Of a stretch of 22,480 nucleotides of DNA, positions 3,494-18,797 are shown in pieces. Each line of letters starts with the position of its first letter. The stretch's first letter is position 1. The DNA lies in the IMG/VR virus record IMGVR_UViG_3300023184_000557, positions 1 through 22,480 of that record; one strand, written 5' to 3'. Origin of the DNA: a virus. The position numbers and the translations under genes were made by a program. Below the pieces are notes generated by a model. That model had not been told where the DNA came from. It ran no database searches and worked only from the letters and a program-made list of their open reading frames with translations.

Positions 3494-3868
3494 TTAGTTT
3501 AAGGCTCCTGTAATAATTTCTTCCCAGTCACCATTTTTCCAAACATAATGATTACCATCATTTGGATAAGGTATTGGTGCTGTCCATTTAAAATCTACTA
3601 AAGTCCAATCATCAAAAGGTTTTGGTGATATAAAAACATTATTTACACTATCATAAGTAAAACCTATTCCTGCATAAACATTTCTAAAATTAGAATTATA
3701 CGAGGTTTGTCTTATAGTATCATAATCATAAATATTTTTAATATTTAAAGAGTTTATAAAATCAATGCCTAATTGTTCAACTTCAACTCCATTAGAGAGT
3801 AATTTTTCATTATCAATAACTATTACAGCTATTACAATACTATCTTTTATTAATGCAAAGTTTGCCAT
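3494..3868 (-). CDS. Fibre-associated accessory protein (124 aa)
   Basis: This protein has the layout of a small family common in environmental phages. The start is MANFALIKDSIVIAVIVIDN, a Leu/Gly patch follows (VEQLGIDFIN), then the core RQTSYNSNFRNVYAGIGFTYD (about residues 53-73), and an aromatic/proline-rich tail ends with a WKNGDWEEI segment. From memory, such proteins sit among fibre genes. Their role is not established; fibre assembly or a virion-surface part are both possible. The start codon overlaps the stop of the upstream glycine-rich adhesin gene by one base (TAATG), and the gene ends 2 bases before the large fibre gene, so the three are probably translated together. Confidence 0.65.
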   Translation of the reverse strand: MANFALIKDSIVIAVIVIDNEKLLSNGVEVEQLGIDFINSLNIKNIYDYDTIRQTSYNSNFRNVYAGIGFTYDSVNNVFISPKPFDDWTLVDFKWTAPIPYPNDGNHYVWKNGDWEEIITGALN

Positions 3869-4824
3869 TATTTGTATTTATATTTTATTATTACTATTCC
3901 CGAACCACCATTACCACCTGTTGCTGGTGAATTTCTTTCAGCTCCACCGCCGCCACCGCCTGTATTTGTAGTGCCACTTGTTCCTGCTCCACCTAAACCA
4001 CCATTACCTCCACCACCAATACCACCAACTCCTGCGGTTCCTGCTGTTGTATATACACAACCTCCACCACCACCAGCGTAATAAATTGCTGAACCACTTA
4101 TTGAGGATGAAGTTCCCGCTCCACCATTACCACCGACTGTTGATGTTCCATTTACACCAACTGCACTTGATCCTCCTCCTCCACCACAACCATAATAAGG
4201 TGCTGCTGTTGAATTGCCAGCTCCATCTCCTCCAGCAAAACCTTGACCTGAAGTACCTGCCGCACCTAATGTTGAACCACCTGTAAATCTTTGACCAGTA
4301 CCACCTCCACCACTACCTCCAATTAAAGGGCTTGCAGCATAAGAACCTCCACCGCCACCTCCAATAGAAGTTATTGCATTAAAAGATGAATTTGTACCAC
4401 TATCTCCTGATACATTGTAATTACTACTTCCTGTGCCTCCACTACCAACAACTACAGAATAAGTTTGAGAAGTAATAGTTAAACCTGTATTTGTTCTTAA
4501 TCCTCCTGCACCACCACCTGCACCTAATATACCACCACCACCCCCACCGCCACCTGCTACTATCAAATATTCAACAGTATTGTCAGTTCCTACATTAGTA
4601 ACTACAAAATTATCAGTTGAATTAAAAGTATGTATTTTATAATTTCCACTTGTTGTTACAGTTCCACCTGTTGCAACTGTAAATGGATTTGATACTGTTC
4701 CTGAAGGATGTGCAAAAATATCAGACGTTGTTTTAAAGCCAAATGGGTTGTTACTTCTTGTTTTAAAAAAAGAACTACTACCAAGTATTTGGCTTTTAAC
4801 TGGACGTTTTATTAATTTACCCAT
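3868..4824 (-). CDS. Glycine-rich tail adhesin, copy 2
   Basis: This 318-residue protein is a paralogue of the protein at 378-1301. A basic N-terminus (MGKLIKRPVKSQILGSSSFF) and an NNPFGFK segment are unique to this copy. They are followed by the shared module NPFTVATGGTVTTSGNYKIHTF, a hydrophobic VEYLIVAGGG strand and glycine-run blocks to the end (NGGSGIVIIKYKYK). The best-matching parts of the two copies are the AGGAGGL, GSGGTG and GGGGGGAERN segments. The loops between them differ, as expected for host-contact loops. By analogy with phage glycine-rich adhesins it should sit at a fibre tip. The different N-termini suggest the two copies attach to different places or compete for one fibre. 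The glycine codons make proline-rich reading frames on the other strand, which are not genes. Confidence 0.8.
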   Translation of the reverse strand: MGKLIKRPVKSQILGSSSFFKTRSNNPFGFKTTSDIFAHPSGTVSNPFTVATGGTVTTSGNYKIHTFNSTDNFVVTNVGTDNTVEYLIVAGGGGGGGGILGAGGGAGGLRTNTGLTITSQTYSVVVGSGGTGSSNYNVSGDSGTNSSFNAITSIGGGGGGSYAASPLIGGSGGGGTGQRFTGGSTLGAAGTSGQGFAGGDGAGNSTAAPYYGCGGGGGSSAVGVNGTSTVGGNGGAGTSSSISGSAIYYAGGGGGCVYTTAGTAGVGGIGGGGNGGLGGAGTSGTTNTGGGGGGAERNSPATGGNGGSGIVIIKYKYK

Positions 4825-5460: not shown

Positions 5461-6573
5461 TTATCCTTTTTCATAAGTAAATGATAAATAAAGTTTTGTA
5501 CTGCTGTCTACAGTAAATGGAGCAACTTTGTTAAAACCCAAATCTGTTACTGGAGATGGTCTTAAATACCATAATGTAAATGTATTATTAGTACCTGTTA
5601 ATCTAGCTTTTAATTGATAATATGTATTTGTAGTTACATCATGAATGCTACCACATATATATTGATTATCTCTTGCAGGATTTTTACTAGCTGGTAATGT
5701 CAAACTAAAACTACCAGTTCCATTGTAAGGTGCAAAATCAGTAATACTTGAAAATGCTACAGCTATTTCTACGTGAACTATTTTTCCTATTTCACAATAA
5801 TAACCAGAATTTACTGTAGGTACTGTTAATGAAGCACTATCTTTAAGAACTGGACTATATGTACCATTTGTAGATGAACTAACACCTGCTAAACCACCAG
5901 GTCCAACTCCATTAGGAGGAAATGATAAGTTTGCTGGAGTATTTCCAGAATAAGCTAAATCTAATACTATTACAGTAGTTCCATCTTGAATATTACTAAC
6001 TTGATAGTAACCACAATTTTCAATAAAAATAATTTGTCCAACTACCATCCAAAGAGTACTTTGTACTTGTATAGTATATGTTGGTCCAGAACCAATTGAA
6101 CTACTTTGTATTGTATAAGAACTAATTCCAATTGGACCTTGTGGGCCCTGAGTTCCTTGACCTCCTGCAGTTCCAGCAATTGAAATACTCCAATTACTAT
6201 ATGCTCCACTACCACTAGATAAATCAATAGCTATTGTTACTGAAGTAGAACTGACTGAAGAAATAATGCCCTCCATCCAATTACTAATAATTCCTAAATA
6301 AGAAACACGTAATCTTTGTCCAACAATCCATCCTATATTTGATGATGTTACTGTATATGCAAATGTTTTTGATCCAAATGATGCTATTGTGTTAGAACTA
6401 ACACTTAATCTTGTTACATCAGATGGATATCCTGGAGCACCAACTCCTGGTCCTTGTGGTCCCATTGGACCTTGTGGTCCTACTGCTCCAGCAATACCAG
6501 GATCACCTTGAGGTCCTGCAGGGCCAGAATAAACAACTACTGCGTTTACATTATCATTACAATTTACACACAT
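5461..6573 (-). CDS. Collagen-like tail fibre protein (370 aa)
   Basis: Residues 17-43 are nine Gly-X-Y triplets (GPAGPQGDPGIAG..., with GPQGPMGPQGPG). A second short block (GTQGPQGPIG) occurs near residue 140. Such collagen-like repeats are typical of trimeric phage fibres. Each block is followed by a similar beta domain containing a VGQ strand: IGWIVGQRLRVS near residue 83, and LWMVVGQIIFIE near 175. The C-terminal 130 residues (from about TNGTYSPVLKDSASLTVP) look like a fibre-tip domain of a kind seen on other phage fibres. The N-terminus MCVNCNDN has a CxxC pair, next to two other Cys-rich genes. It is probably a tail or head fibre that contacts the host. Confidence 0.8.
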   Translation of the reverse strand: MCVNCNDNVNAVVVYSGPAGPQGDPGIAGAVGPQGPMGPQGPGVGAPGYPSDVTRLSVSSNTIASFGSKTFAYTVTSSNIGWIVGQRLRVSYLGIISNWMEGIISSVSSTSVTIAIDLSSGSGAYSNWSISIAGTAGGQGTQGPQGPIGISSYTIQSSSIGSGPTYTIQVQSTLWMVVGQIIFIENCGYYQVSNIQDGTTVIVLDLAYSGNTPANLSFPPNGVGPGGLAGVSSSTNGTYSPVLKDSASLTVPTVNSGYYCEIGKIVHVEIAVAFSSITDFAPYNGTGSFSLTLPASKNPARDNQYICGSIHDVTTNTYYQLKARLTGTNNTFTLWYLRPSPVTDLGFNKVAPFTVDSSTKLYLSFTYEKG

Positions 6574-9000: not shown

Positions 9001-9672
9001 TTATTCTTTTTGATTATCTATTATTGGTGTAAATGTTTGATTACGTTTTCCTTCTATTCCTTCTAATGCTATCTTAATAGCTTCATCTACTATTTCTTGA
9101 TGAGTATGTTGTGATAGTGAGAATGTAACACCTCCTGATAAAGAAACTGGTGTTGGCTTTCTAATATATCTATAAACATATTTTAAAACTGTACAATCAC
9201 TTGATGGTATAATTTCTACATAATTTTTATATAACAATCTAAGAACTTTTGTTTTGTCTGGACCTTTAAATGGATCAGTTTTAATCTTTTCAAGTTGCAT
9301 ATGTGTTGCAGCTCTAACAGTAACTTCAATTCCACTTAATGTTATATAGTCATTAACTATAACTGCTGAACCTGCATAAACAATTGTTCCAGAAGTACTT
9401 ACTGTCCTTAATTGAACTATAAGCGTTTCACCAGTATCAGAAAACAAATCTACAGCAGCAGTTCTTGTTAATGTTCCAATGTTATCTGTAATTGTTATAG
9501 AACCACTATTTAAGTTATCTGAAAAATCAGCAGCTACAGTTGTTCCAGCATTAGTCCAATACAATGTTCCTGAACCAAATTGTGTAGTTATTATTGTATA
9601 GGTTACAGTTTCTCCTTCTCCAATAACAGACTTGTTTTTATTGTATATGTATGTTGTTGATGGGGTAGACAT
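9001..9672 (-). CDS. Calx-beta-like domain fused to the C-terminal half of a neck/tail protein (223 aa)
   Basis: Residues 14-108 read as a Calx-beta/Ig-like domain: VIGEGETVTYTIITT, GTLYWTNAGTTVAADF, a D..SDTGETLIVQLRT strand and a closing VIVND. Residues 110-223 have a different character: THMQLEKIKTDPFKGPDKTK, then KYVYRYIRKPTPVSLSGG and HTHQEIVDEAIKIALEGIEG. From memory the second part resembles the C-terminal half of a conserved virion protein coded near the capsid gene in Bacteroidota phages, possibly a neck or tail-ring part. The matching N-terminal half appears to be the gene at 9678-10046, 5 bases upstream and in another frame. This suggests a split gene with an inserted beta domain. 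The Calx-beta assignment is firm; the neck role is inferred. Confidence 0.65.
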   Translation of the reverse strand: MSTPSTTYIYNKNKSVIGEGETVTYTIITTQFGSGTLYWTNAGTTVAADFSDNLNSGSITITDNIGTLTRTAAVDLFSDTGETLIVQLRTVSTSGTIVYAGSAVIVNDYITLSGIEVTVRAATHMQLEKIKTDPFKGPDKTKVLRLLYKNYVEIIPSSDCTVLKYVYRYIRKPTPVSLSGGVTFSLSQHTHQEIVDEAIKIALEGIEGKRNQTFTPIIDNQKE

Positions 9673-9677
9673 TTATA

Positions 9678-10046
9678 TTAAGTTGGAATTAAAATTGTTG
9701 TATTACAAGTTGCACAACTTATATATGCTTTTTCCCAAACAATAAACCAATTATCATCAGGAAGTGTAAAGAACGCAGAATTAATTGCAGTTCTACCACT
9801 TGAAATTGTTGTAGAAGGTGAAAGAATTTTACTTTCTAGTATGTCCTTTAAATCTTCAGTCCTTTTTTCATCTTGTTCAAAACCAGTGTTTTTAACATTA
9901 GTGTTATCATAACGCTGTTTAATAAACCTTTCTTGAGCTTGATTTAAAAGTAGATCAATTTCTTCAGTTAAGAAGTTTGGTGCATTTAAACCATCCATCT
10001 TATCTAAACCAAATCTAAATGCTCTATGTGCTTCACTTATAGTCAA
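9678..10046 (-). CDS. N-terminal half of a neck/tail protein (122 aa)
   Basis: It is helical at the start (MTISEAHRAFRFGLDKMDGL, then LTEEIDLLLNQAQERFIKQR, residues about 24-45) and contains a GFEQDEKRTEDLKDIL segment. It ends with a strand LPDDNWFIVWEKAYISC and C-A-T-C near the C-terminus. The run from EEIDLLLNQAQERFIKQRY to RTEDL is, from memory, typical of the N-terminal part of a structural protein of about 220-250 residues in Bacteroidota phages. The rest of that protein seems to be in the next gene. The stop codon is followed after 5 bases by the next start, in a different frame, so simple read-through cannot rejoin them. It lies one base after the 267-residue gene. Confidence 0.65.
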   Translation of the reverse strand: MTISEAHRAFRFGLDKMDGLNAPNFLTEEIDLLLNQAQERFIKQRYDNTNVKNTGFEQDEKRTEDLKDILESKILSPSTTISSGRTAINSAFFTLPDDNWFIVWEKAYISCATCNTTILIPT

Positions 10047-10898: not shown

Positions 10899-10935
10899 AA
10901 AAAAAAATAAAAGGTGTATTGGAGGCACACCTTTT
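10899..10935 (-). terminator. Rho-independent terminator after the major capsid gene
   Basis: On the minus strand a perfect 9-base-pair stem (AAAAGGTGT with ACACCTTTT) with a 9-base loop is followed by A and then nine T. It begins 16 bases after the capsid stop codon. It probably ends or weakens transcription there, so that the capsid mRNA is in excess over the genes downstream. Confidence 0.85.
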
Positions 10936-10950
10936 AAAGCCTTTGAATTT

Positions 10951-12411
10951 TTAAGAAATAGATTCTACGTCTAAGATGAATTGACCTGCATCAGTTGGAT
11001 CTTTCAACATGATACCACACTCACTTAATACGTGGAATTCATAACCATCTACTGGGCTAGATGAAGTACCGTTTTTCTTCATACCATATGGAGAAGCTAA
11101 TCCTTCAATATAAGTTGAAGCCATTTCACGACCATTGTGGTATACTTTCATAACGTTAGACTCACCATTGCTATTCATCTTAAAGTTTAAGAAAGTAGCT
11201 TTGTATGATTCAGCTGGTTTACCAGTTTGTGGATGTAAAGTACGGTTACGTACTACAGAGTTATATAAAGGACATTCTTTAAGTGTAATTTTATCACCAT
11301 TCAAACCTACATAAGTTTTGAACTGACCACCTAAAGCTAATTCTTGACCTGTACCAGTAATGAATTTGCTATCTACTAAAGTGTAGTTAGACATTGATTT
11401 TTTCATAGCTTGGTCAAACAAGTTCATAAATTGACGTCCACAAAGTGCAACGTATTCACGAGGTCCATCTTCAGTACCATTGTATGATAAATCATCCATA
11501 AAGTCACGAAGAACTTGTTCAGTTAAGTTTGTATACTTACGCTTGTTAGCTGGAGCAATTTGCTCTTCTAAACCAGCACCAGTAAAGATAGGATTACCAG
11601 AAGTACCTTTCATAGAAGTAGTACCGTTTTTATTAACGTTACCCTTACCATAAATATAAGCAATTTCCATTTCATCCATCCATTGAGCCCAAAATTCCCA
11701 CTCAGCGTATTTTACCCAAGTATAAGAAACTTCTTTGCCAGTTGGATTCATCATTCCAATTTTTAATACTTTTGCTTGTGCAGCACCTGAAACAGAATAC
11801 ATTTTACGAAATGTAGTCATGTAATTCTCCATCATAAATGGTGTAGCATAAACTGTATCTCCTGAAGTACGAGAATGATCATGTTCAACAACGTTGAAAT
11901 CTTTTGATAATTCTTTTCCTTGAGCCAATAAAGACTGAGGAACATACATAGTAGGATCTTTTGTTACTAATTGTAAAGTGTATACAAAATCAGTACCATC
12001 AGAATAAGGCTCTTCCATTACACGAACAGAGTAGCTATTATCATCTAATACTAACACGTCACCTAGGCTAAACCATTTTTCAGGTAAACCAATGCGGAAA
12101 GTTGTATTAGCAATACCAGGAGTTGAAGCACCATCATTATAAGTTGATTGAGCTACTGAAATAGGAACAGCTTTTTGGCTATCTCCCATTAAAGGCCAAC
12201 GGTAAACAATATTGTCTAATCCTTTGGTTCTTCCAGTTCCTGAAGTTAAAAATGATAAAGCGTTTTTGTAGCCATTCATTTTGTTATACACACGAACAAT
12301 TACTTCTGAAGCCAATGCTGGCTCAGTTAAGAAAAAGTTTGATAAGTGAGATGCCTGAGTTAAACCTGTGTGCCAGTTACCAGTACTTATCTGTAAGTCA
12401 TTTAATTGCAT
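10951..12411 (-). CDS. Major capsid protein, crAss-like type
   Basis: This 486-residue protein is the likely shell subunit. Its length, its position after a probable scaffold and its own terminator all fit. Segments I associate with capsid proteins of crAss-like phages include NIVYRWPLMGDSQKAVPI (near 67-84), the RIGLPEKWFSLGDVLVLDD stretch (near 106-124), TPFMMENYMTTFRKMYSVSG (near 190-210), the NPIFTGAGLEEQIAP segment (near 275-290) and the C-terminal NGREMASTYIEGLASPYG. The family is expected to have the HK97 fold; I infer this from the family, not from the sequence directly. There is no obvious cleaved N-terminal domain, and a separate scaffold gene lies immediately upstream. The leader is A/T only. 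Confidence 0.85.
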   Translation of the reverse strand: MQLNDLQISTGNWHTGLTQASHLSNFFLTEPALASEVIVRVYNKMNGYKNALSFLTSGTGRTKGLDNIVYRWPLMGDSQKAVPISVAQSTYNDGASTPGIANTTFRIGLPEKWFSLGDVLVLDDNSYSVRVMEEPYSDGTDFVYTLQLVTKDPTMYVPQSLLAQGKELSKDFNVVEHDHSRTSGDTVYATPFMMENYMTTFRKMYSVSGAAQAKVLKIGMMNPTGKEVSYTWVKYAEWEFWAQWMDEMEIAYIYGKGNVNKNGTTSMKGTSGNPIFTGAGLEEQIAPANKRKYTNLTEQVLRDFMDDLSYNGTEDGPREYVALCGRQFMNLFDQAMKKSMSNYTLVDSKFITGTGQELALGGQFKTYVGLNGDKITLKECPLYNSVVRNRTLHPQTGKPAESYKATFLNFKMNSNGESNVMKVYHNGREMASTYIEGLASPYGMKKNGTSSSPVDGYEFHVLSECGIMLKDPTDAGQFILDVESIS

Positions 12412-12440: not shown

Positions 12441-13631
12441 CTATTGTATTTTTTTGAAAGCAGCAAATGGATTACTTCCATCTTCATTTCCATAAGTTGA
12501 TCCTCCTGAGATTTTCTCCTTACTTGTCTTGCTGTAATTCTTAAGCATTTTACCAAATTTGTTACTAACCTTAGTCTCAACTTGTTTCTCTAATTTAGAG
12601 ATGTCAAAGTCTAACATTGATTGTAAAGCAAATAAAAGTGATGCTTCATTGTTATTGTCTATTGAGTTTTGATATGCAGTTTTACCTGTACTTCTATCAA
12701 TAGCTGTCATATGATCCCAAAGCTTTTCTTTTAATTTTGGAGTAAGTTTAAAACCTTTAATATTTTCTCTTGAAAACAGGTCATTTTTAAATCCATCCCA
12801 ATATTGCTTTTGAGCTTCCTTTTGCTTAACAGCTTGTTGTTTTTGAATTTCAACAATCTCTTGCTTTTGAATAGCTTCATTTTTTTGTAGTTTAACTAAT
12901 GCAGATTTAGCTCTTTTTTCTAAAGTACCATTATCTCTCCATTCATCAACCATATCTCTTATTTCATCTTCATCTTCACCACTTAATCTTAATGACTCTT
13001 CAACAGCTAATGCTTGTTTGTTTTCATCTTCAATATCAAATGACTCCCATGAATGATTGCCATAATAAACATTTAAAAAATCTTTAGGTTTACCACCACT
13101 TTGAACAAATTCTAAAAATTTAGAGTAATCTGGAGGTAAATCATTAACCCATTTAGTAATCCTGTTTCCAACAGTTTTATTAACTAGCTTTTCAATACCT
13201 TCTTCTGAATCATCAAAATCTTCATCTGAATCATCAAAATCAAGAACTCCTTTGTGATAAAGGTTTTTTGTGAATTCTTTAAAAGCTGAGGTTTCTTCAT
13301 TTTCTCTAGCTTCATTATCTGAATCATCTGAATCATCTGAATCATCTTCAAAATTACTTTCTTTGAATTGACTGCTTTCAATTGTTTCACCTTTAGCCTT
13401 TTTAGCTGTTCTTTCAGCTATCTTCTCAAGTGCCTTGTCAGCTTTCTTTAAACGGTCTTCTTCTGTTTCAGAAGTTTCAGTTAAATCATTAGGTTCTTCT
13501 TTAAGAATTCCCTCTTCACCATCCTGAATATCATCTTCATCAGATGGTGGTGCAAACTCTCCTTTTAGTATTTTAAATGCCCCAAAAGGATTGTCTATTA
13601 GATCTGTTGTGTTGTTTTTACTTTTTCCCAT
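12441..13631 (-). CDS. Probable scaffold/head assembly protein with NPF motifs at both ends (396 aa)
   Basis: This acidic, coiled protein lies just upstream of the capsid gene, the usual place for a scaffold. Residues 25-150 are very acidic, with tandem Asp/Ser repeats (DDSDDSDDSDNE near 96). Residues 200-330 are helical and rich in Lys/Gln/Glu (for example QKQEIVEIQKQQAVKQKEAQ), as in scaffold rods. The C-terminus is basic. A nearly repeated motif is found at the two ends: NPFGAFKIL at residues 14-22 and NPFAAFKKI at 387-395. In scaffolds the terminal helices often bind the capsid subunit, so these may be docking motifs. It could instead be an internal head protein. The leader of about 90 bases to the ferritin gene is the longest gap within the head genes. 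Confidence 0.7.
   Translation of the reverse strand: MGKSKNNTTDLIDNPFGAFKILKGEFAPPSDEDDIQDGEEGILKEEPNDLTETSETEEDRLKKADKALEKIAERTAKKAKGETIESSQFKESNFEDDSDDSDDSDNEARENEETSAFKEFTKNLYHKGVLDFDDSDEDFDDSEEGIEKLVNKTVGNRITKWVNDLPPDYSKFLEFVQSGGKPKDFLNVYYGNHSWESFDIEDENKQALAVEESLRLSGEDEDEIRDMVDEWRDNGTLEKRAKSALVKLQKNEAIQKQEIVEIQKQQAVKQKEAQKQYWDGFKNDLFSRENIKGFKLTPKLKEKLWDHMTAIDRSTGKTAYQNSIDNNNEASLLFALQSMLDFDISKLEKQVETKVSNKFGKMLKNYSKTSKEKISGGSTYGNEDGSNPFAAFKKIQ
13205..13347. repeat. Short tandem repeats coding the acidic linker
   Basis: Two repeat clusters lie in the acidic part of the scaffold gene. A 9-base unit GAATCATCT is repeated three times at 13321-13347, coding Asp-Asp-Ser. A 16-base match (CTGAATCATCAAAATC) occurs at 13205-13220 and again at 13226-13241, a 21-base period. 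They probably change length by slippage. Confidence 0.7.
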
Positions 13632-13719
13632 GTTGTTATAGTATTAAATATAATAATAATTGTTATATATTGCAAGCTTTAGGATAAATTAAATCTTTAC
13701 CCTTATGGCTATTTGTTTT

Positions 13720-14244
13720 TTACTTTTCTTTTAATTCATGATCAAATAGACGTAATGCTATCTTATCAGTACCAAAAGTTTCTAATTGATCAACTAAGGT
13801 TTGTACTTTACCCATCTCCTCTTGTTGCTCATTTAAGAATTTAATAGCAAGTTGATAAAGCAAATGATTGCCTTGTTTTAAGGCTTGAACTGCTAAATCA
13901 TTACATTGCTTAGTAACCATTACTTCATGATCAAATGACTTTCTTATGATGTCAGGAAGACCTGCAAATGATTGAGGTGGTTCTTTTAATGAAGGTACTT
14001 TAGGCATAACACCCATATCTAACAAGAAATCCTTAGCCCAACCTGCGTGAACCATTTCTCCATCAGCATCTGTCTGCCAAACTTTATGAGCATGAATATA
14101 CCCATTATCATTTAACCATAAAGACATTGCGTGGTAAAGTCTACTAGAATATTCTTCTTGTTCTATTCTGTAGTTTAAAATATCAATACACTCTTTTGTT
14201 GCAAAAGGGTTCTTTGATACATTTGTAAAAGCTGGTAATGCCAT
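13720..14244 (-). CDS. Ferritin (non-haem, full ferroxidase site) in the phage head operon
   Basis: This 174-residue protein is a ferritin, close in length to bacterial FtnA (165). By alignment to FtnA, all ferroxidase residues are present: E30 (FtnA E17, in EQEEYSSRLY), E63 and H66 (E50, H53, in GEMVH), E107 (E94, in FDHEVMVTK), Q140 and E143 (Q127, E130, in NEQQEEM). The site-C glutamates E139 and E142 and the tyrosine Y37 are also kept. The C-terminal helix ends ALRLFDHELK, as in ferritins (LFLLDRELG type). It should oxidise Fe(II) and store iron in a 24-subunit cage. It lies 4 bases after the portal gene, in the head operon. The N-terminus extends FtnA by about 13 residues and contains NPFATKE, similar to the scaffold end motifs. 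There is no haem-ligand Met as in bacterioferritin at the usual place, so non-haem ferritin is preferred. Confidence 0.92.
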   Translation of the reverse strand: MALPAFTNVSKNPFATKECIDILNYRIEQEEYSSRLYHAMSLWLNDNGYIHAHKVWQTDADGEMVHAGWAKDFLLDMGVMPKVPSLKEPPQSFAGLPDIIRKSFDHEVMVTKQCNDLAVQALKQGNHLLYQLAIKFLNEQQEEMGKVQTLVDQLETFGTDKIALRLFDHELKEK

Positions 14245-14248
14245 TTTT

Positions 14249-16765
14249 TTATTTTTTATTGTTAGATGATTTTATTTTTAATTTTTCTATTTCCATTTTT
14301 TTATTCATTAGATCTCTATCTAGACTAGCTTTCTTATTAGCTAACTCTATTTGATTTTGATTTTGAATCTTAATGGCTTGAATCTTTTTGTCTTCAATAT
14401 CACTTTTCAGCTTTATTTCTTTTTCCTTGATACTAAGTTCCTTGTCATGTTTTTGTTTATCATGAATTAACTTACTTTGCTCCATAAATGCTTTAGATTG
14501 AATATCTCTTTCTTTTAAAGATAGGTTAGCAATTTCTGTTGCATCAGGTATTAAGTTCTGATTAACATCACTAGGACCAGTCATACTTCTCATTGCGTTA
14601 ATCTCAGCAACTTGAATTCTAGTTTGATTAGAAGTATCAGTTTTATATTGTTCAAGGTCTCTATCAGCTTGCTTCTCTTGAAGTTGCATTTGTTGCATTT
14701 TTTCTTGAGATTCAAGTTGTTGTTTTTGAGAGTCAGACATACGTTTGTATTTAGCCTCTTCACCTTGTTGTATTGCTCTTATCATATCTTTAGGACTGTC
14801 ATTAACTAAACTATTAATGATAGTACTTAAATCAGCTTTATCAGCTTGTAATGCAGATTGAGCTAATTGCTTTAATGCTTGTAATACACTTTGATCTTTT
14901 GATGAATCAGTAACATAAACATTAAACTCAGAATTGTCTAATTGAGATTCTTCAATGTTTAATAATTCAATACCCATGTCATCTAAAACAAATTGTACTT
15001 TTTTACCTTTTCTAAAAGCTATTTTAGCACACTCTATTAAACCTACATAAACTTTACGCTTACATTCATCATGAGAGTCAAACAAATACTCTGTGCCTAA
15101 TGAAGATTGTTCTACTGAACGTTCAACATTACCTACAAGTTCTCTATTTGCTATAGCGCCTAATCTTTGAGGAGACACACCACTAATAAAAGCAGCTTGA
15201 CTCTTAATATAATCTAAAGTTTGAATGTATTGTTGAATGGTGCTAGATAAACTTAAATCAATTGATTGAAATTGATTAAAGTGTGATATCTTACCAGTTT
15301 GACTTCCTTTATTAGCCTCTTCATGAGAGTTAATAAAAGCTATCTTCATTGCTTTAAGATAATACATCCATCTTTCAATATCCATTCCTTCAGACCTAGG
15401 TATTTGTGCTAAGTCCATTAAAAATATCCTACCTTGATCACTAGCAAAAGCTAATTCTAATCTATAAGATATAATGTTGTAAAGATATTGGTATGGTTTT
15501 AATCTATCTAAAAGAGAAACAGAAACACTGTTTGTTGCATTGTAAATAGTTCCAGTATAACCTAACTTGCAGTAATATGGATTATCCATTCTTCTACGTT
15601 GGTTCTCTTTAGGCTGAACATTTATATATATTCTATCTCCAATTTTTATTCCTTCCCAAGCTTCGTTAATCCAAAACTCTTCTACGGTTGCATTTTTATA
15701 AACTTGTTTAAATACACTAATCTTAAAAGATTCATCTACTATTTGTTCAACAGGTAAATCATTCTCATCAGTATATTCTAAATGGTATAATTTCTTAAAA
15801 GATTTCCACTCTATTCTAACTACACGTATTAACTCTGAATTAAATGCTCCAGCAGTTGTGTTAATTGTTGAGAAATTAGATAAACCAGTATCAACAACAC
15901 CATTAGTTCTATCTAAACTAAATGTTGGGTTATTATTTACTAAGTTATAACTAGATGTAAATCGTTTAGATATGGCTTCAATCTCACCAACTTGATCAGC
16001 AGTTAAGTCTGAACCAAACTCATCAATAATAGATGCTGGTGCTAACATCCTAACCTCAATAACAGCTAATGCGTCATCAATGTATTCTGTATCACCATCT
16101 AATATTACTGTAGTGTTTAATGGATTACAACGTCTAAATAAAACTTCATCATTTGATACACCACTCCAGTAAATCTCTTCACCTGCTATTAAAGCATCTT
16201 TCCATCCACGCTTAAATGTTTCTTTAGTGTTTAAAGACTTCTTTAAATATTTTAATATCTTATTTGCTTGAGATTCAATTAAATCAGATATATTGTGTTT
16301 TTCATATTTAATTATTTGCTCAGGAGTTGGAGGAGGATTGTTTGGGTCAATGGTACTAGGATCTATTTCCCCCATTAACCTTTGTTGTAACATCTCTACA
16401 ATCTTCTTCTTTAATGATTCTTGCTTTCTATTAATATCTAATGGAGTTTCAGAAACAACAATAAAATTATCTGATCTCTTTGTCTCTTCACCAATTAATA
16501 AATTTAAAGAAGGAGAAATAATATCATAGTGTTGTAGTGTAGCAGGAAAGTCATTGTCTTTTAATCCAAGTGGATTTGAAACATATTCTAAGTCAGCTTT
16601 GTTAAACCTTCCGTTGAATAAGTCATAGTTAATCTTCTTATTATAATTAGTGGTTCTATTAGATGCAACAGAACTATAAGACATTCTCTCATAGTAGTTT
16701 ATTGTATCCTGTTTCCAACTTTCATCCTTTTTACTAAAAGGTAATTTTTGTACTGGTAAAGCCAC
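14249..16765 (-). CDS. Portal protein (838 aa)
   Basis: This large protein between terminase and ferritin fits the portal, the dodecameric ring through which DNA enters the head. The N-terminal part (MALPVQKLPFSKKDESWKQD, then a YERMSYSSVASNRTTNYNKK stretch) leads into a portal core. Recognisable portal-like segments include LKYLKKSLNTKETFKRGWKD (near 170-190), GEEIYWSGVSNDEVLFRRCN (near 195-215), and the clip/stem-like run around YNIISYRLELAFASDQGRIF (near 435-455). From about residue 680 to the end it is a long coiled coil rich in Gln/Glu/Lys (for example KQQLESQEKMQQMQLQEKQA), an extension found in large portals of Bacteroidota phages. The gene starts 16 bases after the terminase gene ends. 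A smaller role in anchoring internal head proteins by the coil is possible. Confidence 0.88.
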   Translation of the reverse strand: MALPVQKLPFSKKDESWKQDTINYYERMSYSSVASNRTTNYNKKINYDLFNGRFNKADLEYVSNPLGLKDNDFPATLQHYDIISPSLNLLIGEETKRSDNFIVVSETPLDINRKQESLKKKIVEMLQQRLMGEIDPSTIDPNNPPPTPEQIIKYEKHNISDLIESQANKILKYLKKSLNTKETFKRGWKDALIAGEEIYWSGVSNDEVLFRRCNPLNTTVILDGDTEYIDDALAVIEVRMLAPASIIDEFGSDLTADQVGEIEAISKRFTSSYNLVNNNPTFSLDRTNGVVDTGLSNFSTINTTAGAFNSELIRVVRIEWKSFKKLYHLEYTDENDLPVEQIVDESFKISVFKQVYKNATVEEFWINEAWEGIKIGDRIYINVQPKENQRRRMDNPYYCKLGYTGTIYNATNSVSVSLLDRLKPYQYLYNIISYRLELAFASDQGRIFLMDLAQIPRSEGMDIERWMYYLKAMKIAFINSHEEANKGSQTGKISHFNQFQSIDLSLSSTIQQYIQTLDYIKSQAAFISGVSPQRLGAIANRELVGNVERSVEQSSLGTEYLFDSHDECKRKVYVGLIECAKIAFRKGKKVQFVLDDMGIELLNIEESQLDNSEFNVYVTDSSKDQSVLQALKQLAQSALQADKADLSTIINSLVNDSPKDMIRAIQQGEEAKYKRMSDSQKQQLESQEKMQQMQLQEKQADRDLEQYKTDTSNQTRIQVAEINAMRSMTGPSDVNQNLIPDATEIANLSLKERDIQSKAFMEQSKLIHDKQKHDKELSIKEKEIKLKSDIEDKKIQAIKIQNQNQIELANKKASLDRDLMNKKMEIEKLKIKSSNNKK

Positions 16766-16781
16766 TTTATTTTATATTAAG

Positions 16782-18797
16782 TTAGTATTGTGTTCTGTTA
16801 TGTATATTTTTCTGAAATAGCTTCTTTGAAAAAAAGGAGTCCATCTCAAGTAATGTTTTAGGCATTGAGTCTTGTAAATGTAATTTATGCATTTCTTTAG
16901 ATTGCAAGATACACAACATAAAAGCAATAACCCTGTCCGTATTATTTTGTCTATCATAAGAAATTAATTCTTTTAACAAAGGTACGGATTTTATTGTATG
17001 TAAGTTTAATATTTTTGTTCCATCTACATCTTCACGCTCTTCATATAACCATTGCTTTAAATAAATCTCACATTGGTCTTTTATTTGCTGTGACATGTGA
17101 ATGCCATATCCTCTTGTTACTTTAGAATTGCTTACAATGTCTTTAATAATCTGAGGTTGTTCACATAAGTAATGTAAACTGTTCTTCATTTCAAAATAAC
17201 CTTTAAGGCCTTTTAATTGATTTTCATATAAGCACTTAGCATTATAGTAGATACACATTCTTCTACATATCTCATAAAAATCATCAGCTCTTTCTGGTCT
17301 TCCAGTAAATTCTGCTACAATCTGATCATAAGTTTGAGCATTGCTCATAAACCTTTTATACACAAAAAATGATCCCAAGGATTCACTTGTTTCTGCTTTA
17401 TCTTGATCATATGGGTCACAACCTGCAATATATAATCCATAAGGTGGATTAGGAACAGGGTCTTCCCAAAGAACAATACAGCCAGTTTTTAACCTATCTT
17501 TTGGTAAAGGATAATCTATCACATCTACCAAGTCTGGATTTAATCTTGCTTTAATCTCATTGTTAATATCAAAATATAACTCTACCTTTTTCTTATTCTC
17601 TTTAATAGATGAGGTTGTTTCAACCTTACCTAACCATTCATGCATTTCAAAACTAGCAAATATGGTACCAGAGTTTCTTAAAAAAGATTCACTTGGAGTT
17701 AATGGATACTGAGTAATAGCATCTTGTAATGCCTTAGGATCATGTCCAGTTTTCTTTGCTTCTCTTAAGTTTAAGATAGAATCTAAAGCTAATGACTCAT
17801 CTGAGTTACCATCTTCATCTACCATTGGTTTATTTTTAAAAGAACCTAACCTACCTTTTGTTGCTGGTATAAACCAACCACATAAAGCTTGTTCTTTTCC
17901 TTCCTCCCAAACATTACTAAACTCTAATAGATTGTATTGTTTAGGGTTATTAAACATATAAGCAAAGTCTGCAGTACCACCTTCCATATCTCCACCTGTA
18001 CCAAATATAATTGGAATACCAATCATATTCTCTCCATCTTTCCAACAAGGTTCTGTCATTCCATAAGCTTCCTTTAAGTTTATTAAAGTACCAGCTTCTT
18101 CAAATACAAAAACACTTGTAGTTAATCCTACAGATGCAAATGGGTTGTCTTTAAAAGTTAATTTTGTAACTTCAGACATATATCCTTTCCAAACTTTAAC
18201 ACCATCTACATGGGATTCAAATCTAGCCTTTACATGATCTTTAGTATCTGGACTTCTTTGCTTTCTCCATTCAGTATTAGCATTTAGGAAGTTTAAATTA
18301 TCAAGAACCATATTCATAGTGGTAGTTGATAACCTATCTAAATAAGCTCCTATAACACATTTAGAATCCCTGTAAAAATTATACTCATGTGCAACTAGTG
18401 CGGCATTCTTATAACTAAATCCAGTTCTTCTAGGTTTAGAAAATATCAATCCTTTTTTCTTAATCCTACAAACATCTATTAAATGAAAGTAGTCATAATC
18501 AATATCTAAGAATCTAGGAAACATCATTTTTTTTCTTCCAGTCTCAACGTCTTCAGCTTTAATCTGAATGTAGTTTAAATAGAAATAATGAATACCTGTT
18601 ACTCTAATGCCTAATGAATTTGTAAATCCATGTCTGCATCTAAAATCTTCCTCTTCCCAAAACTCTTTATACTGACTAGTACCTTTAGGTAAATCTGTAT
18701 ACATCTTGTGCTTATTAAAGTAGATTGCTCTTTCTCTAAATTCACTAGTAAGTTCAAACTTATCTACTTGAGGTACATGCTGTGTATTAGATCCCAT
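16782..18797 (-). CDS. terL: Terminase large subunit
   Basis: This 671-residue protein is the DNA-packaging motor. The ATPase part has an adapted Walker A motif KPRRTGFS (121-128), a Walker B motif SVFVFEEAG (228-236) and a coupling motif near GTGGD (266-270). The nuclease part has an RNase H-like set of acids: D461 in AGCDPYDQ, E525 in CLYENQ, and D621 in NNTDR. The motor cuts concatemeric DNA and pumps it into the prohead through the portal, which is coded next. The Walker A with Arg in place of a Gly is usual for large terminases. The start is the first ATG, 2 bases after the previous stop, with no other start needed to include the whole ATPase domain. Family placement near crAss-like terminases is inferred. 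Confidence 0.92.
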   Translation of the reverse strand: MGSNTQHVPQVDKFELTSEFRERAIYFNKHKMYTDLPKGTSQYKEFWEEEDFRCRHGFTNSLGIRVTGIHYFYLNYIQIKAEDVETGRKKMMFPRFLDIDYDYFHLIDVCRIKKKGLIFSKPRRTGFSYKNAALVAHEYNFYRDSKCVIGAYLDRLSTTTMNMVLDNLNFLNANTEWRKQRSPDTKDHVKARFESHVDGVKVWKGYMSEVTKLTFKDNPFASVGLTTSVFVFEEAGTLINLKEAYGMTEPCWKDGENMIGIPIIFGTGGDMEGGTADFAYMFNNPKQYNLLEFSNVWEEGKEQALCGWFIPATKGRLGSFKNKPMVDEDGNSDESLALDSILNLREAKKTGHDPKALQDAITQYPLTPSESFLRNSGTIFASFEMHEWLGKVETTSSIKENKKKVELYFDINNEIKARLNPDLVDVIDYPLPKDRLKTGCIVLWEDPVPNPPYGLYIAGCDPYDQDKAETSESLGSFFVYKRFMSNAQTYDQIVAEFTGRPERADDFYEICRRMCIYYNAKCLYENQLKGLKGYFEMKNSLHYLCEQPQIIKDIVSNSKVTRGYGIHMSQQIKDQCEIYLKQWLYEEREDVDGTKILNLHTIKSVPLLKELISYDRQNNTDRVIAFMLCILQSKEMHKLHLQDSMPKTLLEMDSFFSKKLFQKNIHNRTQY

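Follow-up and report, generated by a model that had tools for sequence, protein, structure and literature searches.

The locus examined here raised the question of why a phage should carry a complete ferritin gene among its head genes, and whether the product belongs to the particle or only to the infected cell. The DNA analysed (the window) was a virus record of 22,480 bases from a crAss-like phage, whose membership of the Crassvirales was indicated by matches to the Crass capsid family (PF23898), the ring proteins (PF25710) and the PHROG portal and TerL families. The whole head cluster was located on the minus strand, in the order terminase, portal, ferritin, scaffold-like protein and capsid, and all coordinates given for this cluster refer to that strand. 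The gene for the terminase large subunit (16782 to 18797; PHROG 6681, 1e-142) was followed by that for an 838-amino-acid portal protein (14249 to 16765; PHROG 6547 portal, 6.8e-148; P22_portal, 2.4e-07) and by the gene for a 174-amino-acid FtnA-type ferritin, running from ATG to TAA (13720 to 14244; PF00210, 5.7e-21). The initial annotation had the coordinates and the 4-nt spacing right, as the portal gene ends at 14249 and the ferritin gene starts at 14244. A further 88 nt separated ferritin from the gene for a 396-amino-acid scaffold-like protein (12441 to 13631), which was recognized by its position and acidic composition, its match to phrog_16294 (5.2e-4) being to a family of unknown function; in relatives, too, the capsid gene came immediately after this gene. 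The major capsid protein was of the Crassvirales type (10951 to 12411; PF23898 Crass_capsid, 1.6e-134), and its gene was followed by a terminator-like hairpin (10908 to 10936; an 11-bp stem and then a T run), of a kind whose number in the region was at chance level.

Two other features of the window were observed. The ring protein 3/4 gene (9001 to 10046, minus strand) consisted of two open reading frames, each matching one half of PF25710, and the second had an additional N-terminal domain that appeared Calx-beta-like by eye; the split was not a sequencing error, since the same short first frame was present in the closest relatives (L003, L004 and L080-L083). Downstream of the head genes, very glycine-rich, collagen-like (GPAGPQGDPG) proteins of the fibre type were encoded at 378 to 1301, 3868 to 4824 and 5461 to 6573 (minus strand).

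Identity and expression of the ferritin

The Pfam Ferritin profile PF00210 gave 75.4 bits (cut-off, 24.5), and the nearest solved structures were of the FtnA type (9bye, 3qz3 and 1eum; E values of 5e-18 to 2.5e-17). Alignment with E. coli FtnA (1eum) required no gaps over the core, at an offset of 13, and hence the six ferroxidase ligands matched one to one, with E30, E63, H66, E107, Q140 and E143 corresponding to FtnA E17, E50, H53, E94, Q127 and E130. All six were unchanged in 29 of 29 phage homologues, which bore out the initial claim of a full-length FtnA alignment with these ligands kept. That reading had, however, missed the loss of FtnA E49, which is G62 in the window ferritin and E or D in most relatives. 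The third iron site, C (E49, E126 and E129), was therefore incomplete, with E139 and E142 kept. This site is not needed by every ferritin, and membership of the FtnA type is unaffected.

A monomer structure, modelled with the 29 phage homologues, had a mean pLDDT of 92.5. The predicted helices A to E (residues 17-46, 52-76, 96-123, 127-157 and 161-173) formed a four-helix bundle with a short E helix, and the model fitted V. cholerae and E. coli FtnA with an RMSD of 0.9 to 1.1 Å over ∼158 residues, in agreement with the ferritin fold first proposed. Values of dN/dS among close homologues ranged from 0.05 to 0.34, leaving out the pair of window and L008 genes, whose alignment is broken by an N-terminal indel, and indicated purifying selection. 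The E values, the dN/dS values and the recurrence of the gene at one location across dozens of independent contigs showed that the match was not due to chance, and agreement among dozens of contigs ruled out a chimeric contig. The window gene is a genuine ferritin.

A promoter-like element, TTGCAA-17-TATATT, was conserved in the scaffold leader (13647 to 13675), downstream of the ferritin gene. Among 34 non-redundant operons, the TATATT block was kept in nearly all and the TTGCA block in most, whether ferritin was present or absent. This element implies that ferritin is probably the last gene of a terminase-portal unit, with a promoter of their own serving scaffold and capsid downstream of it; judging from the gene arrangement, ferritin is probably translated together with the portal. 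Such an arrangement would favour a low copy number like that of the portal; it also leaves co-expression with the capsid unassured, which counts against a function in the head. A search for Bacteroidota TAnnTTTG promoters gave counts at chance level.

Occupancy and exchange of the portal-scaffold slot

Two IMG/VR scans with the window ferritin as the query yielded 70 ferritin loci. In 34 of these (L003-L034, L036 and L041) the gene adjoined the portal gene and preceded the scaffold gene, or lay beside whichever of them the contig retained, and the placement that the initial annotation had proposed to look for in relatives was thus found. The gene was placed differently in another crAss-like clade, whose capsid protein has ∼541 amino acids: it began where the ring 3/4 gene stops (L046 and L061, read gene by gene), and in L058 and L035 it came after the gene for a large structural protein of the virion, probably the muzzle. 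Farther relatives were placed elsewhere, and a copy in L063 that had no N-terminal tag was found among non-structural genes. In a tblastn search of 50,697 phage records, the matches were limited to one bacterial contig under a wrong label, further faecal contigs lacking annotation and a pair of odd Staphylococcus records. The GenBank record MT839617 (L001, 'Bacteriophage sp.') looks bacterial, with genes judged by eye to be thioredoxin reductase-like and desulfoferrodoxin-like flanking the ferritin.

A census that was blind to ferritin was performed with the capsid protein as the query, and the portal-scaffold slot was read where it was complete. The slots of 34 non-redundant operons contained an FtnA ferritin (n = 6), a DUF5856 protein (n = 12), both (n = 3), something else (n = 5) or nothing (n = 8), so that a ferroxidase of one or other of two distant families was present in 21 of 26 filled slots. 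Other contents were homing endonucleases (HNH/GIY-YIG) and a GroES-like gene, the latter identified by eye (L041, 10671 to 10934; 87 amino acids). A further family of slot reading frames, often beside ferritin, comprised L103:5436-8318, L015:10692-13451 and 33 more; its N terminus (MWxxL...KxELMxSYR) was conserved and its length very variable (177 to 960 amino acids). The eight empty slots indicated that the slot gene is not essential. No ferritin was detected elsewhere on 16 ferritin-less contigs, most of them fragments. Absence or displacement in relatives, which had been named at the outset as evidence against a head link, was therefore found in part, with 8 of 34 slots empty and with the genes of other crAss-like clades placed elsewhere, mostly among virion genes.

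The DUF5856 family (PF19174, phrog_858) is currently annotated as a 'starvation-inducible transcriptional regulator'. The slot forms were 126 to 141 amino acids long, and their ligand spacing, H-12-H-15-D-4-E (H-x11-H-x14-D-x3-E), was the exact Dps spacing, in a comparison based on the E. coli Dps residue numbers. Residues H36, H48, D63 and E67 were invariant in 14 sequences, some members lacking 3 residues in the first loop. The top Foldseek matches of the predicted fold were Dps structures (probability, 1.00; TM, 0.6), at a weak E value of 0.075. This family, widely annotated as a transcriptional regulator, gains a likely mini-ferritin function. It shares the slot with the window ferritin, replacing or accompanying it, but is a mini-ferritin of about 120 to 140 amino acids and not an FtnA; it is also common in other phages, where its gene is found away from head operons as well.

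Exchange of ferritin genes at the slot was indicated by disagreement between capsid and ferritin identities, which were 92% and 50% in L081 and 65% and 72% in L112. In the phylogenetic tree, the slot ferritins did not form a single group, and one set of them was placed among the clade-2 ferritins. Phage ferritins formed their own clan, apart from the sampled Bacteroidota ferritins, with 100/100 support and the exception of one Maribacter gene. This gene (L158, 5995 to 6504; Maribacter orientalis) was nested within the phage clan and was possibly captured from a phage. Overall, these results placed the window ferritin in a ferroxidase slot that recurs across phage head operons and whose occupants are exchangeable. 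Our search of the open-access literature yielded no account of a slot of this kind, in keeping with the initial statement that no described ferritin was known at this place.

N-terminal tails and recurrence in other head types

The window ferritin begins with a disordered extension, MALPAFTNVSKN (14209 to 14244, minus strand; codons 1 to 12), which is a candidate targeting tag; residues 1 to 10 had a pLDDT of 48. When a profile was trained only on the N termini of slot DUF5856 proteins, the held-out slot ferritins scored far above 634 other N termini from the same contigs (AUC, 0.966), although the tag of the window ferritin itself was among the weaker matches, reaching only about the top 5% of the background. 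In some pairs of ferritin and Dps-like genes the first four or five codons were identical at the DNA level, which fits exchange through recombination immediately within the start of the gene and could be explained without selection for a tag. Selection for an N-terminal docking tag is a possible reading of these sequences. Clade-2 ferritins had a different basic motif and a variable linker (14 of 16, versus 8 of 246 other proteins, for a motif chosen post hoc). In L058 (9956 to 15902), a start of MKxLK(R/K) is common to ferritin and the two large genes after it, suggesting a common N-terminal signal in that clade. A likeness by eye of the clade-2 tag to the N termini of crAss001 gp21 and gp29, which had raised the idea of a link to head fibres, was dropped, since their ranks among 97 crAss001 proteins were unremarkable: gp21 ranked 18th with the clade-2 tag and 15th with the clade-1 tag, and gp29 ranked 29th and 48th, respectively.

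The distribution of DUF5856 was then scanned without regard to position. The counts refer to the best 80 of at least 591 matches, which are biased towards slot forms and include redundant loci. Among these best 80, 35 were directly downstream of a P22-type portal gene (PF16510, 2e-167), mostly overlapping it by 1 to 14 nt, and 9 were beside a T4-like prohead protease gene (PF03420), where DUF5856 preceded the scaffold and Gp23 capsid genes whenever the contig reached them. Of the remainder, 5 occupied the slot of crAss-like phages, 8 immediately preceded the terminase gene in other phages of that type and 23 were unclassified. The P22-portal loci (L228-L277) were from GC-rich phages in which DUF5856 runs over the portal stop codon, and in L233 a P22 coat protein gene lay downstream of it. 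A DUF5856 gene and a ferritin gene (PF00210, 3.2e-15) were in tandem in the interval between prohead protease and scaffold of one T4-like locus (L224, 2398 to 3292). This pair was among small genes sharing an N-terminal motif, M-x-x-L-x-x-L-L-x-E, similar to a capsid targeting sequence. In the T4-like phage RB49, DUF5856 was outside the head operon, near tk and rI. The recurrence in P22-type and T4-like operons was the strongest argument for a function tied to the head, and the link to the head operon drawn initially was strengthened beyond what a single sequence could offer, by the conserved slot, the exchange with a Dps-like gene and this recurrence.

Proposed role of the cage and comparison with known systems

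The explanation that we prefer, with a probability of roughly 0.55, is that a working ferroxidase cage is made with the head, is probably built into it, is exchangeable and protects phage DNA from iron-driven oxidation. FtnA-class subunits would assemble into an iron-oxidising cage, with FtnA ferritin and Dps-like DUF5856 as two interchangeable cages in an accessory slot beside portal and scaffold. Translation of ferritin would be coupled with that of the portal, and the cage would most likely join the assembling head, in or on it, by way of an exposed N-terminal tail. There, the cage would clear Fe2+ and peroxide, and DNA would be spared Fenton cuts during packaging and carriage. Counted against a role in the head were the endonucleases and the GroES-like gene in the slot, the RB49 gene outside the head operon and the tagless state of Sajous1 gp217. 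This protein, which was modelled as a ferritin, was among those that mass spectrometry detected in virions purified on CsCl (PMC10892097), and a check of the record and protein of this Kuttervirus identified it as DUF5856 (1.3e-28), encoded after the tail completion protein gene. Its detection speaks for a place in the particle but, as the same list includes polymerases and other likely contaminants (PMC10892097), is suggestive only.

The most serious rival, although a less probable one, is a late iron and oxygen-radical buffer in the cytosol, co-transcribed with the head genes and acting outside the particle, where it would protect DNA during replication and packaging, or host metabolism, late in infection. 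Ferritin and Dps are soluble cages for which no partner is necessary. The putative DpsA of crAss001 lies outside the head operon, as does the RB49 gene near tk and rI, and the tagless L063 ferritin sits among non-structural genes; such a role is proposed for Dps and Mn-catalase of gut phages (PMC8008677). A cytosolic buffer gives no account, however, of the portal, prohead protease and scaffold neighbours in three unrelated head types, of the start-stop overlaps with the portal or of gp217 in purified virions. Of the two alternatives in the initial annotation, a virion component or cargo and an infection-time buffer, we give incorporation in or on the head a slight preference over a role confined to the cytosol, and a location in the virion is inferred for the window ferritin. 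An improbable third explanation treats the interval from the portal to the scaffold promoter as a permissive insertion site that collects passengers, the benefit of ferritin being metabolic and unrelated to the head. A conserved promoter does lie downstream of the slot, which in some relatives is empty or holds HNH, GIY-YIG or other genes, but a random hotspot would not pick one function repeatedly, as was seen in the ferroxidases of two distant families in 21 of 26 filled slots and in the same pairing in P22-type and T4-like phages. Very improbable is the 'Ferrojan horse', in which particle iron serves host entry through iron uptake receptors. It was suggested for Sajous1 on the basis of gp217, yet no TonB or FeoB dependence was found for that phage (PMC10892097), and the initial annotation's recourse to it found no support here. 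The genes adjoin portal and scaffold instead of tail fibre genes, and the cage encloses the iron of ferritin.

Extending the preferred explanation of a head-associated cage, we tentatively suggest, at odds a little short of even, that at least three unrelated head types have an exchangeable ferroxidase nanocage, FtnA or Dps-like, in or on the capsid, where it protects packaged DNA. Phage ferritin-family genes have so far been read as metabolic helpers; that they recur beside portal, prohead protease and scaffold genes in phages of unrelated groups suggests instead a part in head assembly or in survival of the particle. Iron in phage particles becomes testable using genes of culturable phages, and ferritins whose exposed tails dock to heads could be of use for loading cages into capsids.

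E. coli and V. cholerae FtnA (1EUM and 3QZ3) share the fold, five helices and six A/B-site ligands with the window ferritin but are only 27 to 29% identical to it; the phage protein has G in place of C-site E49, and crAss-like phage ferritins have N-terminal extensions of about 10 to 45 amino acids. The crAss001 head fibre protein gp21 (PMC10172136) is also encoded right after the portal gene, but it is not a ferritin and the test for a shared N-terminal motif was negative. Sajous1 gp217 is from the family that shares the slot, but is Dps-like, not FtnA, and from another phage family. The Dps and Mn-catalase of gut phages (PMC8008677) are likewise phage-borne functions for iron and oxygen detoxification; they are described as infection-time genes, and the available part of that source mentions no portal-scaffold slot. 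The initial parallel with encapsulins holds as an analogy only. In the encapsulin and EncFtn system (PMC5012862), an HK97-fold shell is also paired with a ferroxidase, whereas the shell in the present case is that of a phage head, which has a portal and a terminase, the enzyme is a full FtnA cage protein instead of a two-helix EncFtn, and the variable extension is N-terminal and not a C-terminal loading peptide, so that membership of the encapsulin cargo class was rejected.
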